Assembly: GCF_000760935.2 (NCBI RefSeq) | Contig: NZ_CP049744.1 | Coordinates: 4,495,501-4,559,500 of the forward strand | Direction: 5' to 3' | Source: Rhodococcoides fascians A25f | Lineage (GTDB): Bacteria; Actinomycetota; Actinomycetes; Mycobacteriales; Mycobacteriaceae | DNA length: 64,000 nucleotides | Part shown: positions 38,323 to 43,813 of the stretch, piece after piece | How positions within the stretch are numbered: position 1 is the stretch's first letter | Layout of the letters: every line of letters starts with the position of its first letter | Program-made: the position numbers and the translations under genes | The notes under the pieces: model-generated | Database searches by the model: none | The model's input: only the letters and a program-made list of their open reading frames with translations | What the model was told of the DNA's origin: nothing

Positions 38323-38712
38323 TTAGTGCACCTGCGAGGTCACGAGCGCTACCACGTCACCTGCGCGTAGGTCTGCGGGCAACTCGACCGGACTGACGCA
38401 ACTGCGCCCTGGGCTGTGCACGTCGACCTTGACCACCGGACCCACCGAATGCCGATTGACCACAACGGCCTGCAGCAGATCACCGAACTCGGCATCGACG
38501 CCCACCTCGCCTGCGATGACCGAGCGCACCCGAGTCACCAGAATGCGGCCCCACTGCACCGGAGTGCCCTGCGCATCGGCCAGATCCTCCAGCGCAACGC
38601 CGTCGACGGTGATTCGGCCACACACACAGTGCGTATCGGCGGGCCACAGCGATGGATCGCACCGCGCAACGTAGGCGGCACCGAGAGACGGAAGCATGTC
38701 GAGAAGTGTCAT
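38323..38712 (-). CDS. conserved hypothetical protein, possibly TOBE-like
   Basis: A 129-aa soluble protein, not recognised. It begins MTLLDMLPSLGAAYVARCDP and has three Cys in the first half (one CVCG pair). The C-terminal half, with VHSPGRSCVSPVELPADLRAGDVVALVTS, looks weakly like a TOBE beta-barrel used for small-oxyanion or Mo binding. If so, it would fit the adjacent molybdopterin enzyme, but this is speculative. The chosen ATG at 38712 avoids an upstream extension. It is divergent from the methyltransferase, sharing the region that holds the TetR-type palindrome. Confidence 0.55.
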   Translation of the reverse strand: MTLLDMLPSLGAAYVARCDPSLWPADTHCVCGRITVDGVALEDLADAQGTPVQWGRILVTRVRSVIAGEVGVDAEFGDLLQAVVVNRHSVGPVVKVDVHSPGRSCVSPVELPADLRAGDVVALVTSQVH

Positions 38713-38814
38713 GAGAAGCAGTCTTGCGCCGCGCGGAGGCGTCGAACAGAGGTGTTGACGCAATATTGACGGCAGCCACAGGAAATTTGACGCACCTCTC
38801 ACGGTGCCGTCTAC

Positions 38815-38830
38815 TGTACCCGCTGGTACA
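38815..38830. promoter_or_regulatory. TetR-type operator 1 (methyltransferase-tetR promoter)
   Basis: TGTAC-CCGCTG-GTACA at 38815-38830. It matches, in half-site and in 6-bp spacing, the palindrome before the molybdopterin oxidoreductase (40168-40183). A TACTGT -10-like hexamer (38812-38817) overlaps it, so a bound repressor could block RNA polymerase. It sits 10 bp before the GTG of the methyltransferase. Confidence 0.65.
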
Positions 38831-38839
38831 TTCAATCGG

Positions 38840-39505
38840 GTGATCGCAGACGACGTCTATCGCCGCGGCCGTGCCGGCCTTCCCTCGTGGCTCACCGATT
38901 CCCACGGCCGCCGCACCCCTCTGCCGATCGAACGCTGGCTGGGCGGTGCGCATTCGACAGCGCAGGACATCCGGGCAGACGAGGCGTCGATCGCCTTCTG
39001 CTCGGGGCCGACACTCGACCTCGGCTGCGGCCCGGGACGTTTGACCGAGGCCCTCACTCGCGCCGGAGTTCCCACCCTGGGCGTCGACACCTCCTCGGTT
39101 GCTGTGGAGATGACGAACCATAGGGGCGGGCGCGCGATGCAACAGGACATTTTCGCTGCGCTGCCCGGGGCGGGCCAGTGGTCGCACGTGCTGCTCGCGG
39201 ACGGCAACATCGGCATCGGCGGCGACCCGGCTGCACTGCTGAGGACGGTTCGATCGCTGCTGCACGAGACGGGTACGGCCATCGTCGAATCCGCCTTCGG
39301 GATCGACGATCGGAGCACAATGGTCCGTTGGGAGACGGGTGACTCGATCGGCGAATGGTTCAGCTGGGCCAGCGTCGGCGTGAGCGCGCTGTACGCGCTG
39401 GCGGTAACGGCGGGACTACAAGTCCGGCGAACCGTCGAGTCGAACGGTCGGGTATTCATGGAACTCGCTGTTCACAACATCGAGCGAGGAACCGAGGGCC
39501 TGTGA
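38840..39505 (+). CDS. class I SAM-dependent methyltransferase
   Basis: A 221-aa Rossmann-fold methyltransferase with motif I LDLGCGPGRLTEAL and acidic-loop LGVDTSSVAVEM. The substrate is unknown. The GTG at 38840 is preferred because an earlier in-frame GTG (38804) would place the operator inside the gene. It overlaps the TetR start by 4 bp, so enzyme and regulator are coupled. It probably acts on a small molecule linked to the neighbouring redox enzyme. Confidence 0.78.
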   Translation: MIADDVYRRGRAGLPSWLTDSHGRRTPLPIERWLGGAHSTAQDIRADEASIAFCSGPTLDLGCGPGRLTEALTRAGVPTLGVDTSSVAVEMTNHRGGRAMQQDIFAALPGAGQWSHVLLADGNIGIGGDPAALLRTVRSLLHETGTAIVESAFGIDDRSTMVRWETGDSIGEWFSWASVGVSALYALAVTAGLQVRRTVESNGRVFMELAVHNIERGTEGL

Positions 39506-40110
39506 GCAAGGAGCTACCGAGAACGGCAAAGGGCCGACGAACCAGAGCGGCCATCGTCGACGCGGCCGCATCGATGATGTACGAGCACGGCGTCGCGGGA
39601 ACTACTCTCGACGACGTACTTGCCGCATCCGAGACCGGGAAGTCGCAGCTGTACCACTATTTTTCCGACAAGTCGGACCTGGTCGAGGCAGTGATCGCCC
39701 GCCAACTCGAACGCGTCCTCGCCGCTCAGCCACGCCTGGCCAACATCGACAGCCTCGACGACATCGACGCATGGGCCGCCGAGGTCGTCCGAAACCACGA
39801 GCAGCCCGGGGGGCCGTTCTCGTGCCCCCTCGGCTCGCTTGCCGCAGAACTGAAGAACGACGCGGCGTTCGTCCCCAGTCTTCATGCTGCGTTCCGCCGC
39901 TGGGAGCAACCGCTGGAGCAGGGGCTTCGCCGCATGGTCGACCGCGGGGAACTGGACGTGGCAACCGATCCGGCCGCTGTTGCCGCCACACTGATCGCAT
40001 CGCTTCAGGGCGGAATGCTCATCGCCCGTATCGCGGGGGATGTTCGACCGCTCCGCGACGTCCTGGACGCTGCGGTCGCCGCGGTTCGTCGACGCCGTAC
40101 CGAGACGTGA
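39502..40110 (+). CDS. TetR-family regulator
   Basis: A 202-aa TetR protein: N-terminal HTH in GRRTRAAIVDAAASMMYEHGVAGTTLDDVLAASETGKSQLYHYFSDK. The C-terminal ligand domain has GGPFSCPLGSLAAEL, typical of the LmrA/YxaF type. GTG start overlapping the methyltransferase stop. Two palindromes of the form TGTAC-N6-GTACA sit at the promoters on each side of this gene pair, so it probably represses both operons. Confidence 0.85.
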   Translation: MSKELPRTAKGRRTRAAIVDAAASMMYEHGVAGTTLDDVLAASETGKSQLYHYFSDKSDLVEAVIARQLERVLAAQPRLANIDSLDDIDAWAAEVVRNHEQPGGPFSCPLGSLAAELKNDAAFVPSLHAAFRRWEQPLEQGLRRMVDRGELDVATDPAAVAATLIASLQGGMLIARIAGDVRPLRDVLDAAVAAVRRRRTET

Positions 40111-40162
40111 CAACCGGACGAACTCTGGCGACCGAGCCCCGAGTGCGCTAGGGTCGATCTCA

Positions 40163-40188
40163 CAGTTTGTACTACTGGGTACAAACTG
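40163..40188. promoter_or_regulatory. TetR-type operator 2 (molybdopterin oxidoreductase promoter)
   Basis: CAGTTTGTAC-TACTGG-GTACAAACTG, perfect 10-bp arms at 40163-40172 and 40179-40188, in the gap between tetR and the oxidoreductase. The inner TGTAC-N6-GTACA is the same as in operator 1. It lies 16 bp before the start codon. Confidence 0.75.
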
Positions 40189-40204
40189 GGAGACGGGAAC
40201 CAGA

Positions 40205-41452
40205 ATGCAACGACTTCCTACGTTCCGCAGCCCGATCCGCGGCGTCTGGTTCACGTCGGTCCTCGCCTCCGTGCTGCTCGTCGCGCTGCCGATCGTGACA
40301 GTGACCGGACTCATCTCCTGGGTCGCGTACGGTCCACAATTCGGCCAATCCATGCCGGGTGACGTCGGATGGCTACGGCTACCGTCGTTCGATTGGCCGA
40401 CCGAACCCGTCTGGTTCTACCGACTCACCCAGGGCCTACACGTGGGCCTCGGACTGATCATGGTGCCGATCGTCTTGGCCAAGCTGTGGTCGGTGATCCC
40501 GAAGTTGATCGAGATGCCACCGATTCGAAGCATTGCCCACCTACTCGAACGGATATCGTTGCTGGCCTTGGTCGGCGGTATTCTCTTCGAGATCATCACC
40601 GGCGTGCTGAACATTCAGTACGACTACCTCTTCGGGTTCAGTTTCTACACCGCGCACTACTGGGGTGACTGGGTGTTCATCGCCGGATTCCTGGCCCACG
40701 TGGTGCTGAAGTTTCCGACCATGGTCACGGCGCTGCGAACCCGCCCGTTCCTGGAACTGATGCGCATTCGGGTGGCCGACACGGTACCCGACGACGACGA
40801 CGAATCAGGTTTGGCCACAACCGATCCAGCTCCAGCGACGATCAGCCGACGCGGAGCACTCACCCTCGTCGGCGGCAGCGCACTGTTCGTGGCGGTCCTC
40901 AGCGCCGGACAGACGACGGGCGGCTTTCTTCGCGATGCGGCGATCCTCCTCCCCCGCGGACGGTCCTACGGCAACGGGCCCAATGACTTTCAGATCAACC
41001 GCACGGCCCAGGCCGCAGGTATCGACGAGGCGCGGACCGGCGATTCGTGGCGACTCACCGTACGTGCCGGTGCCACCGAGGTCGTGCTCACCAGAGCCCA
41101 ACTCGAACAGATGGACCTGCACACCGTCGATCTACCGATCGCCTGCGTCGAAGGCTGGTCGACGGTTCAGACGTGGACCGGTGTGCCGCTGCGGGATCTC
41201 GCGGCAGTCGCGGGAATCGATTCCGTGGACACCGGTGAGGTGCGTTCCCTCGAACCTTCCGGGTCGTTCAACCGAGTCACGTTCGGGGGACACCAGATGA
41301 TGCATCCCGACTCGCTGCTCGCCCTTCGAGTGAACGGTGAGAACCTGTCTCTCGATCATGGTTATCCCGCTCGGATCATGATGCCGGCGATTCCCGGGGT
41401 ACATGCCACCAAGTGGATCGGATCCGTCGAATTCTTCGGGGAGAGTGCATGA
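40205..41452 (+). CDS. cytochrome b/molybdopterin fusion oxidoreductase with internal Tat-like motif
   Basis: A 415-aa fusion. Residues about 15-190 form a cytochrome b-like membrane domain with four spans and likely heme ligands (QGLHVGLG, TAHYWGDW, AHVVLKF). Next, SRRGALTLVGGSALFVAVL is an internal twin-arginine-like segment plus span. The C-terminal 180 residues are a sulfite-oxidase-fold Mo domain, with CVEGWS supplying the Mo-binding Cys. This looks like an MsrQ/MsrP (YedZ/YedY) pair in one chain. The ATG at 40205 has GGGAGACGGGA upstream. Coupled to a small membrane gene. Confidence 0.82.
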   Translation: MQRLPTFRSPIRGVWFTSVLASVLLVALPIVTVTGLISWVAYGPQFGQSMPGDVGWLRLPSFDWPTEPVWFYRLTQGLHVGLGLIMVPIVLAKLWSVIPKLIEMPPIRSIAHLLERISLLALVGGILFEIITGVLNIQYDYLFGFSFYTAHYWGDWVFIAGFLAHVVLKFPTMVTALRTRPFLELMRIRVADTVPDDDDESGLATTDPAPATISRRGALTLVGGSALFVAVLSAGQTTGGFLRDAAILLPRGRSYGNGPNDFQINRTAQAAGIDEARTGDSWRLTVRAGATEVVLTRAQLEQMDLHTVDLPIACVEGWSTVQTWTGVPLRDLAAVAGIDSVDTGEVRSLEPSGSFNRVTFGGHQMMHPDSLLALRVNGENLSLDHGYPARIMMPAIPGVHATKWIGSVEFFGESA

Positions 41453-41946
41453 GTACCTTTCGGGCGCGTTACGGTGCCGGCCCGCTGCACCTGGCGGTGA
41501 CGGCCTGCTGCCTCGCACTGGGCGCGGTTGTCGTACTCACGATCGGCTTTCCGGCACTGTGGAATACCGACGTCTGGTGGCAGTCCATCGGCTTGTGGTT
41601 CGTCGGCGCTGCCGTTGTGCACGACGCGATTCTCTTTCCACTGTATGCCCTACTCGACCGGACGCTGGTTGCTCGACTCGGCCGATTTGTGAACGCGGTT
41701 CGCATTCCGGCGCTCGGCGCAGGTCTGAGCCTGCTGCTCTTCGCCCCTGGAATCTTTTCGCAGGGTAGCGAGACGTACGAGGCCGCCACGGGTCTGACAC
41801 AGGAGCCCTACGCGATGCGGTGGTTGCTCTTGGTAGCAGGCATGTTCGTGGCCAGCGCAGTGTTCTACGGTGGCCGCGAAGCGCTCCGGACGCTGCGTTC
41901 GCGCCCCGTTGGCGATAACCCGAAACGGCAGCACGTGCCCAACTAG
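41449..41946 (+). CDS. membrane protein coupled to the molybdopterin oxidoreductase
   Basis: A 165-aa protein with four spans (about 12-34, 47-70, 82-104 and 124-143) and no recognised catalytic motif. The start overlaps the oxidoreductase stop (ATGA). It could be an extra membrane subunit or electron partner. A histidine in VVHDAILFPLY might be a ligand, though this is a guess. Confidence 0.65.
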   Translation: MSTFRARYGAGPLHLAVTACCLALGAVVVLTIGFPALWNTDVWWQSIGLWFVGAAVVHDAILFPLYALLDRTLVARLGRFVNAVRIPALGAGLSLLLFAPGIFSQGSETYEAATGLTQEPYAMRWLLLVAGMFVASAVFYGGREALRTLRSRPVGDNPKRQHVPN

Positions 41947-41956
41947 GCTCGGTGGC

Positions 41957-43813
41957 ATGAGTGGCGAGTATCGGCAGGCGTTCGACGACAGCATCGACAA
42001 GCGTGAGCAATTCTGGCTCGAAGCCGCAGCGGGAGTCGATTGGGATACCCCTCCCACCAGTGCGTTCGACGGCTCGCGTTGGTTTCCCGGGGCCCGTCTG
42101 AACACCTGCTTCAATGCCCTGGACCGGCACGTCGATGCCGGGCACGGCGACCGGACCGCATTGATCTACGACTCGGCGATGCTCGGTCTCACCCGCAGCT
42201 ACACCTACGCCGAACTGCTCGATCAGGTCGCTCGCTTCGCCGGGGTACTGCGCGAGCAAGGTGTGGGGCCGGGCGACCGCGTGGTGATCTACCTACCGAT
42301 GATTCCCGAGGCCGTCGTCGCGATGCTCGCATGCGCCAGGCTCGGCGCAGTGCACTCGGTGGTGTTCGGCGGCTTCGCAGCCAAGGAGCTCGCGGCGAGG
42401 ATCGACGACGCCGAACCGGCACTGTTGATCACCGCCAGCGGCGGGTTCGAGCCCGGTCGCGTCATCGAATACCTCCCCTTGGTGGCACGCGCGCTGACTC
42501 TCACCACTGCGAAGACGCCATCGGTGATCGTGAAGTCGCGCGAGGGAATTCCCGGCGACCACGAGTGGCTGGACTGGGACACCCTCATCGCCGACGCCAC
42601 CGCCGCACAACCGGTTTCGGTGCTGGCTACCGATCCGCTGTACATCCTCTACACCTCGGGAACGACGGGAAAGCCCAAGGGTGTGGTGCGCGACAACGGC
42701 GGTCATGCCGTCGCGTTGACGTGGTCGATGCGCAACATCTACGACGTGGGGCCCGGGCAGGTGATGTGGACGGCGTCCGATGTCGGCTGGGTCGTCGGAC
42801 ATTCGTACATCGTCTACGCACCCCTGTTCGCCGGTGCCACAACGGTTCTGTACGAGGGCAAGCCCGTCGGCACTCCCGATGCCGGCGCATTCTGGCGGGT
42901 GATCCAGGATCACGGCGTCCGTGCCCTGTTCACCGCACCGACTGCGCTCCGCGCTATCCGCAAGGTCGATCCCCACGCCGCCGAGCTCGAGAAGTACGAC
43001 GTCTCGTCTCTGGAGACCTTGTTCGTCGCCGGCGAACGCCTGGATCCCGATACCTACGAGTGGATTTCGCGCACGCTCGATCGTCCGGTCGTCGACCACT
43101 GGTGGCAGACCGAAACCGGGTGGGCGATCTGCGCCAATCTTCGCGGATTGGAACCGCTCCCGATCAAATCGGGATCGCCGACGGTCCCGGTGCCGGGATT
43201 CCAAGTCGGAATTTTGGATGCGACGGGCGACCCCGTGGAGGCAGGTACCGAGGGCAACATCGTCGTGCAGCTGCCACTGCCACCGGGCGCACTGGTAGGT
43301 CTGTGGAACGACGAATCACGGTTCCAGCGTTCGTATCTCGATACGTTCCCCGGCTACTACCTCACCGGCGATTCCGGCTATATCGACGCCGACGGCTACG
43401 TCTACGTCCTCGGGCGCAGCGACGACGTCATCAACGTTGCAGGGCATCGCTTGTCGACCGGGTCGATGGAGGCGGTGCTCGCCGGCCATCCCGCCGTCGC
43501 CGAATGCGCCGTCATCGGTATCCACGACGACCTCAAAGGCCAGCGCCCCAGTGGTTACGTAGTACTCAAGGCCGGGGAGAACATCACCGAGGAGCAGCTG
43601 CGTACCGAACTGGTGGCCATGGTGCGCGATCAGATCGGTGCGCTCGCGACGTTCCGCGACGTGACGATCGTCGGAGCGCTGCCGAAGACCCGATCGGGCA
43701 AGATCCTGCGGAAGACGATGCGCCAGATCGTCGCAGGCGAGGAGTACGGCGTGCCGTCGACCATCGAGGATCCGGCCGTCCTCGATGCACTGGAGAAGCT
43801 GCTCGGCCGCTGA
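41957..43813 (+). CDS. propionyl-CoA synthetase-like acyl-CoA ligase
   Basis: A 618-aa ANL-superfamily ligase (about the length of PrpE). AMP-binding motif LYTSGTTGKPKGVVRD near residue 232, PRMxTE-like WWQTETGWAI near 385, and the C-terminal catalytic lysine in KTRSGKILRKTMR. The PrpE-like N-terminus FDDSIDKREQFWLEAA and SVVFGGFAAKELAARIDDA point to propionate or acetate activation. The ATG at 41957 follows the membrane gene by 10 bp, which may link it to the Mo operon. A 23-bp perfect hairpin follows the stop. Confidence 0.85.
   Translation: MSGEYRQAFDDSIDKREQFWLEAAAGVDWDTPPTSAFDGSRWFPGARLNTCFNALDRHVDAGHGDRTALIYDSAMLGLTRSYTYAELLDQVARFAGVLREQGVGPGDRVVIYLPMIPEAVVAMLACARLGAVHSVVFGGFAAKELAARIDDAEPALLITASGGFEPGRVIEYLPLVARALTLTTAKTPSVIVKSREGIPGDHEWLDWDTLIADATAAQPVSVLATDPLYILYTSGTTGKPKGVVRDNGGHAVALTWSMRNIYDVGPGQVMWTASDVGWVVGHSYIVYAPLFAGATTVLYEGKPVGTPDAGAFWRVIQDHGVRALFTAPTALRAIRKVDPHAAELEKYDVSSLETLFVAGERLDPDTYEWISRTLDRPVVDHWWQTETGWAICANLRGLEPLPIKSGSPTVPVPGFQVGILDATGDPVEAGTEGNIVVQLPLPPGALVGLWNDESRFQRSYLDTFPGYYLTGDSGYIDADGYVYVLGRSDDVINVAGHRLSTGSMEAVLAGHPAVAECAVIGIHDDLKGQRPSGYVVLKAGENITEEQLRTELVAMVRDQIGALATFRDVTIVGALPKTRSGKILRKTMRQIVAGEEYGVPSTIEDPAVLDALEKLLGR

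Follow-up and report, generated by a model that had tools for sequence, protein, structure and literature searches.

The cassette and its predicted operators

We analysed a stretch of 64,000 nucleotides from Rhodococcoides fascians A25f (contig NZ_CP049744.1, positions 4,495,501 to 4,559,500), hereafter the window, which contains a four-gene cassette with a TetR-family repressor and two matching predicted operators. All four genes lie on the forward strand. The first (38840..39505) encodes a class I S-adenosylmethionine (SAM) methyltransferase of 221 amino acids (aa) with a GTG start, and scores above the Pfam cut-offs for PF13489 (33.3 bits, cut-off 27), PF13649 (28.9, 27) and PF08241 (26.3, 21.2). 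Its stop overlaps the start of tetR (39502..40110), which encodes a 202-aa repressor with a single cysteine, C108. The repressor matches PF00440 (46.1 bits, cut-off 24), and its C-terminal part is of the LmrA/YxaF-like type, with both relevant families above their curated cut-offs (PF21993, 41.3 bits, and PF16925, 48.7 bits; cut-off 27 for each). The third gene (40205..41452) encodes a 415-aa fusion enzyme in which a cytochrome-b-like transmembrane (TM) part is joined to a molybdenum (Mo)-cofactor domain (PF00174, 76.2 bits). Its stop overlaps the start of the last gene, for a small membrane protein of 165 aa (41449..41946). We found 148 relatives of this protein, no Pfam match, and no PDB fold match at an E value of 0.001 (best E 6.1).

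The window holds just two exact matches to TGTAC-N6-GTACA, one at 38815-38830 and the other at 40168-40183. Across 100 shuffled versions of the window the mean count was 0.01, and none held two copies. Operator 1 (38815..38830, TGTACC-CGCT-GGTACA) lies 5' of the methyltransferase-tetR pair, 9 bases from the methyltransferase start codon. Operator 2 (40163..40188) lies 5' of the fusion enzyme and is a perfect 26-base palindrome with arms of 10 base pairs (bp), CAGTTTGTAC-TACTGG-GTACAAACTG, whose core at 40168-40183 is 21 bases from the enzyme ATG. An earlier note on this DNA had described one TetR, two matching operators and a redox cassette with a coupled small membrane gene. That description is supported, the sites being exact where it placed them and the palindrome being legible directly in the sequence.

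Two palindromes could in principle arise by chance, or serve an attenuator or some other factor; the failure to find a sigma-70-type promoter or a terminator-like site in a scan of 38650-40300 would suit such an explanation. Chance is made very unlikely by the expectation of 0.01 and by the association of the word with this TetR across genera described below, and we regard the explanation as a whole as very improbable. Exactness matters in these counts. With one mismatch allowed, 67 matches are found in the 5.89-Mb genome and 66 to a reversed-word control; with two, the window holds 9 where 8.1 are expected. We therefore took only exact sites as meaningful. Across the genome the exact word occurs five times and its reversed control three times.

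The sites follow the repressor within the genus

The earlier note had proposed searching related genomes for the palindrome upstream of homologous genes, and the search bears the proposal out. Among 37 genomes of the genus, 13 carry a TetR at least 67% identical to that of the window, each adjoining a copy of the enzyme, and both exact sites are present in 12 of them. The thirteenth (G035) has one, 5' of the enzyme. Operator 1 keeps its position in all 11 tetR cassettes of the genus that bear the methyltransferase, the window's included, and all 13 tetR-linked loci have retained operator 2 ahead of the enzyme. The cassettes of G034 and G035 are without the methyltransferase, and in G034 the first site stands directly 5' of tetR. 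This placement indicates that the sites follow the two operon starts. A fourteenth TetR match, in G009, is 45% identical and has neither enzyme nor site beside it.

Copies of the enzyme that are unlinked to the cassette TetR are without the word. No exact site was found at any of 18 such loci of about 4.2 kb each, one of which has a one-mismatch site, or at any of seven loci of about 10 kb each; the two sets share two genes. The genome of strain A25f itself encodes a second enzyme copy (G000:C1:5698546, 66% identical), and neither a site nor the small membrane gene was found in its 10-kb locus. In one genome of the genus (G015, L064:4698-5941), the fusion enzyme is split over two overlapping frames, by a frameshift or a sequencing error, with tetR and both sites present.

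The operator belongs to a TetR subfamily

Beyond the genus, we searched GTDB genomes with an alignment of the TetR and examined the best 80 of 345 relatives, chosen by TetR sequence and 43-96% identical to the window protein. They come from Rhodococcus, mycobacteria, Amycolatopsis, Actinomycetospora, Pseudonocardia, Microlunatus and Streptomyces, with most loci outside the window's genus; the proteins and TetR loci closest to the window's are from Rhodococcus and Rhodococcoides. At least one exact site lies within 6 kb of tetR at 71 of the 80 loci (139 sites), and the reversed control word does not occur in their 993,595 bp. Positions 6 and 11, left free in the search word, are a pyrimidine and a purine in 136 of the 139 sites, which gives a refined word, TGTACY-N4-RGTACA. 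The 80 loci are not independent, as many are close relatives; when TetRs are clustered at 80% identity with the window included, 28 of 33 clusters have a site. The TetR peptide patterns by which the loci were drawn include the DNA-recognition helix, so the sample favours a constant operator.

Particular arrangements recur. Of 27 Amycolatopsis loci, 26 have a pair of sites, 27 bases apart, next to tetR and a divergent peroxiredoxin gene. Five Actinomycetospora loci have tetR and the fusion enzyme in divergent orientation; the DNA between the two genes holds an exact site at three of them and a one-mismatch site at the other two. We conclude from these comparisons that the operator almost certainly belongs to the subfamily of the cassette TetR. 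Nine of the 80 loci count against this, having no exact site. Five of them have one-mismatch sites; two (L147 and L201) have scattered two-mismatch matches alone; at L203 no site was found in the stretch scanned even with two mismatches allowed. The sole non-actinobacterial locus (Cohnella) has no site. At L200 (Amycolatopsis anabasis), two copies of TGGAC-N6-GTCCA lie 52-86 bases 5' of tetR, with both half-sites changed symmetrically. The recognition helix region of the L200 TetR reads SKSQLYHYF in place of GKSQLYHYF; it is possible that operator and repressor have changed together. In the open PMC literature we found no description of a regulator with a TGTAC-N6-GTACA operator or with such targets, which does not prove its absence.

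On the TetR tree, three changes are needed to account for the link between TetR and enzyme, so it has been gained or lost more than once; it exists in two orientations. On this tree L141 is labelled by its hydrolase despite also having the enzyme, owing to a distance cut-off, and a cyanobacterial label on two Rhodococcus records was disregarded as a clash of names. Three sets of mycobacterial loci (L142/L143, L191/L192 and L149/L150/L152) have TetRs identical within each set and alike gene order in different species, possibly a trace of recent transfer of an island of redox genes.

A second TetR with the same half-sites

A different owner of the sites has to be weighed. The exact sequence TGTACCGATTGGTACA lies directly 5' of the start of a second TetR gene in the same genome, tetR2 (L004, G000:C1:5584642), whose product is 24-27% identical. 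The sites might be the operator of tetR2, or common to both TetRs; the regulon would then be wider and the cassette not self-contained. The refined word occurs four times in the A25f genome (control 0) and 66 times in the 37 genus genomes (control 12, of which 6 are in one genome), and 25 of the 66 are at the cassette. Of 24 non-cassette sites that we sampled from the genus, 15 have a gene of the tetR2 type no more than 1.5 kb away. C at position 6 with G at position 11 is found in 23 of these 24 sites, against 13 of the 139 sites at the loci of cassette-TetR relatives; window site 1 is itself of this C/G type. Against tetR2 as owner, the cassette sites accompany the cassette TetR, and in other genera, next to different target genes, the word is again found with that TetR. 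We consider ownership by tetR2, alone or shared, distinctly unlikely, and note that cross-talk is possible, as the half-sites before tetR2 are the same as those of the cassette. Of the earlier note's self-contained module, then, the four-gene cassette stands as a unit, and full self-containment is called into question by tetR2.

One further exact site in the genome lies 3' of a proC-like gene, so labelled by eye (L001, G000:C1:1391611). An identical 16-base sequence is present in G009, G016 and G033.

Borders of the module

The cassette is flanked by two genes that belong to the chromosomal backbone. On one side is a divergent gene for a 129-aa protein (38323..38712, reverse strand), which is present beyond the genomes that carry the cassette or its TetR; on the other is a gene labelled by eye as AMP-binding/CoA-ligase-like (41957..43813, forward strand). 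The 129-aa gene is matched in 27 of the 37 genomes of the genus. Identity is at least 89% in 14 of the 27, and 5 of those 14 are without the cassette TetR. In G003, G009 and G022, three genes labelled by eye are grouped without a cassette: a carboxyltransferase-like gene, the 129-aa gene and the ligase gene, the last two about 0.2 kb apart. In G023 the interval is about 1.2 kb and holds no cassette matches. Conversely, the cassette occurs in G010, G031, G034 and G035 without these neighbours. Long continuous similarity between those loci and a locus of the window type covers the cassette alone, with scattered short matches besides. The ligase gene was not found in the 10-kb loci around the cassette in these four genomes or in G015.

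Cassette-free genomes and genomes with a displaced cassette thus limit the unit to the four-gene cassette: methyltransferase, tetR with its operator, enzyme and small membrane protein, of which the methyltransferase is dispensable. The adjacency of the 129-aa and ligase genes in cassette-free genomes rules both out as members. The earlier note had counted the divergent 129-aa gene within the module; it is a bystander, adjoining the ligase gene without the cassette in three genomes. Gene order alone connects the methyltransferase and the small membrane protein with the enzyme. In six of the seven fetched loci that have no tetR, the enzyme and the small membrane gene have a relative of the methyltransferase (39-53% identical) nearby.

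A single-chain enzyme with features of the Sco3746 type

The fusion enzyme begins with four N-terminal TM helices of cytochrome-b-like character, followed by a twin-arginine motif, a fifth TM helix and a Mo-cofactor domain of the sulfite-oxidase/MsrP type. A low-confidence structural model (mean predicted local distance difference test score 65.5) places the helices at residues 13-41, 68-101, 109-133, 146-177 and 212-237, and the twin-arginine motif, SRRGA, stands directly before the fifth. His78, His150, His164, R214, R215 and Cys313 (numbering without the initiator Met) are invariant in an alignment of 40 proteins, the window enzyme and others from 120 listed relatives, all at least 64% identical. 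The cytochrome-b family PF01292 was not matched in the window enzyme in our Pfam run, though it is listed for several relatives.

Structure matches to the Mo domain are sulfite oxidases, 1xdq/1xdy and the short pterin-binding PruR, and no other part of the enzyme gave a significant match. PruR is not known to carry Mo; it was set aside as a match, as Cys313 and its motif are invariant in the fusion enzymes. Cys313 aligns with the CVEAWS motif of Escherichia coli MsrP, and we take it to be the Mo ligand.

These features are those of the Sco3746-type family, heme-molybdenum membrane proteins inserted by both Sec and Tat, to which MsrP and MsrQ are distant homologues on separate polypeptides (PMC5449189). 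As far as the described features allow comparison, the window enzyme shares with that family the TM helices, the twin-arginine motif directly before the fifth, the C-terminal Mo-cofactor domain and three conserved histidines in the TM region, candidate ligands of heme b, and it would accordingly be expected to bind heme and Mo. The passages of the Sco3746 study used here concern membrane insertion and mention neither a regulator nor a substrate; the window enzyme sits in a TetR cassette defined by operators. The family to which the enzyme belongs is large: 7740 proteins reach an E value of 0.001 or better among 8000 scored.

MsrPQ repairs proteins that contain methionine sulfoxide (PMC5449189). 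Like E. coli MsrP/MsrQ (YedYZ), the window enzyme combines a Mo-cofactor domain bearing the aligned Cys motif with a membrane part of the heme-b kind. Unlike that pair, it is a single 415-aa polypeptide, and the alignment ends where MsrP continues for about 70 residues (261 of 334). The nearby regulator also differs, a TetR in the window versus hprRS near msrPQ in E. coli K-12. By analogy the enzyme may perform an MsrPQ-like repair, an assignment that is credible but somewhat doubtful.

Genes beside the operator in other genomes

Whether the cassette serves redox defence can be approached through the genes that the operator accompanies elsewhere. Among the 128 open reading frames (ORFs) that adjoin sites, 30 encode TetRs of the cassette kind, 29 are peroxiredoxin-like and 12 encode the fusion enzyme; there are also 5 AhpC-TSA_2, 4 DUF417 and 3 DM13 genes. 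Single cases are a CMD (AhpD-like) gene, an epoxide-hydrolase-like gene, a soluble Mo-domain gene, a disulfide reductase and a flavin reductase. With tetR left out, 57 of 98 site-adjacent ORFs are of redox type by label. At least one gene of the redox group lies within about 4 kb of tetR in 67 of the 80 loci, site-adjacent or not, a figure that has no control set. DUF417 is the family of RclC and RcrB, which belong to hypochlorite-defence systems, RcrB being under the TetR repressor RcrR (PMC9600549, PMC7464077).

These labels have limits. The ORF clusters were named from few members run against Pfam (3 of 29 peroxiredoxin-like, 1 of 4 DUF417, 1 of 8 hydrolases and 1 of 7 exchangers), and the sigma-factor-like label mentioned below was given by eye. 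Seventeen of the 128 ORFs are unnamed, and at least clusters C8 and C11 hold ORFs antisense to tetR. Our simple ORF caller misses some genes, such as the enzyme in L126.

The earlier note had professed no known function for the module. Its enzyme shares the features of a published family, and the site-adjacent genes elsewhere point to defence against oxidants or electrophiles. Two facts weigh against that function: 19 of the 29 peroxiredoxin-like ORFs come from Amycolatopsis alone, and non-redox genes also adjoin sites, namely 8 alpha/beta hydrolases, 7 of the Na/H-exchanger type, 5 methyltransferases and 3 sigma-factor-like genes. Nor is it obvious what the cassette's methyltransferase would contribute to protein repair.

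In Mycolicibacter arupensis (L094/L152), two convergent TetRs of the subfamily are adjacent and accompanied by three exact sites. The same stretch holds one gene each of the Na/H-exchanger type and of DUF417, and a third that resembles the soluble Mo-domain gene of L193.

What the repressor may sense

A cysteine at the position of C108 is present in 80 of 80 TetR relatives, and in 40 of 81 proteins, the window's included, it is the sole cysteine. It aligns with Cys106 of NemR, the residue for reactive-chlorine sensing in that repressor (PMC7464077). NemR, the bleach- and electrophile-sensing repressor of E. coli, is likewise of the TetR class; it differs in having nemA and gloA downstream and is 22% identical in the alignment. 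A thiol switch in the window repressor is plausible on this comparison, and Cys108 is a tentative candidate for the sensor.

Several observations tell against such a switch. A cysteine at this position also occurs in distant TetRs (NemR, tetR2 of the same genome and 3qbm), so C108 may be structural. NemR Lys175 corresponds to Arg176 in the window TetR and is not lysine in any of the 80 relatives (R in 40, H in 28, Q in 10, S in 1 and D in 1). The electrophile-sensing residues Cys21 and Cys116 of NemR correspond to Met26 and Lys118. These replacements exclude NemR's own chemistry and rule out membership of the NemR group. Furthermore, the nearest NCBIfam models, both far below cut-off, are the ScbR type (66.3 of 150 bits) and AcuR (52.2 of 247 bits), which would fit a small-molecule ligand.

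Among described systems, RcrR-RcrB of uropathogenic E. coli (PMC9600549) resembles several of the mycobacterial TetR relatives in having a TetR repressor beside a DUF417 protein. By its description RcrR needs C54 and C95, whereas the window TetR has C108 alone and its cassette has no DUF417 gene. CssR of Corynebacterium glutamicum is, like the window protein, an actinobacterial TetR; it is an autoregulated stress repressor (PMC8176726), as we propose for the window protein. The source reports that it is not induced by H2O2 or diamide, and prints its operator as TAA(G)TG-N13-CA(G)TTA (25 bp), as against TGTACY-N4-RGTACA here; on this description, the different operator rules it out as the same regulator. 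LoaR/Rv0078 was set aside on similar grounds, as its 21-bp operator and probe, in the letters described, do not contain TGTAC-N6-GTACA.

Proposed mechanism and its main rival

The sites, their tie to the TetR subfamily, the borders of the module and the domain order and conserved ligand residues of the enzyme were computed directly; what follows on binding, derepression, inducer, Cys108 chemistry, cofactors and substrate is a model. A TetR dimer would bind TGTACY-N4-RGTACA at both sites and block both the methyltransferase-tetR operon and the operon for the enzyme and small membrane protein. An oxidant or reactive electrophile would modify the repressor, most likely at Cys108, by oxidation or as a mixed disulfide, and the modified repressor would leave the DNA so that both operons are expressed. 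The single-chain heme-b/Mo-cofactor protein would be threaded by Sec and then Tat, and would use electrons taken from the quinol pool to reduce oxidised material at a Mo site that faces outwards, as MsrQ and MsrP do. We think that the repressor probably responds to oxidants or electrophiles, and lean, with moderate confidence, towards the cassette as a whole being an autoregulated stress module in which such a TetR controls an envelope reductase.

The main rival keeps the same operators and supposes that the TetR senses an ordinary small molecule (acyl, phenolic, lactone or acrylate-like) that the cassette handles. On this view the substrate of the enzyme would be a small S- or N-oxide, and the methyltransferase would act on the same compound. 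The ligand domain of TetR_C_13/LmrA-YxaF type and the affinity to ScbR-type and AcuR models argue for such a ligand, as do the SAM methyltransferase, a neighbour of the enzyme and small membrane gene whether or not tetR is present, and the alpha/beta-hydrolase-like gene in two mycobacterial cassettes. In these two (L088, where the hydrolase was named by eye, and L141), the order methyltransferase-tetR-hydrolase-enzyme-small membrane protein recurs. A ligand of this kind accounts poorly for the peroxiredoxin-like genes, the commonest site neighbours after tetR (29 plus 5 of the 128 ORFs), and these, the DUF417 and the other neighbours have no evident common substrate. We judge a small-molecule ligand to be unlikely.

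If the repressor does respond to oxidants or electrophiles, the cassette may be part of an undescribed actinobacterial regulon. We put forward tentatively a regulon whose TetR carries a single invariant cysteine and acts through a nearly constant 16-bp operator. In some genera its targets would be genes for peroxiredoxins, DUF417 proteins and disulfide reductase; in three TetR lineages the target would be an envelope reductase that resembles MsrPQ in one piece, and in the window this enzyme would be packed with the repressor into a cassette that moves between chromosomal positions. The large Sco3746-type family is known, in the portion of the literature drawn on here, for membrane insertion rather than function. 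The operator predicts when the fusion enzyme is made and, through the other targets, what for. A single operator word would make a redox regulon readable across many actinobacterial genomes, and the repressor could serve as a laboratory sensor part should its inducer be confirmed.

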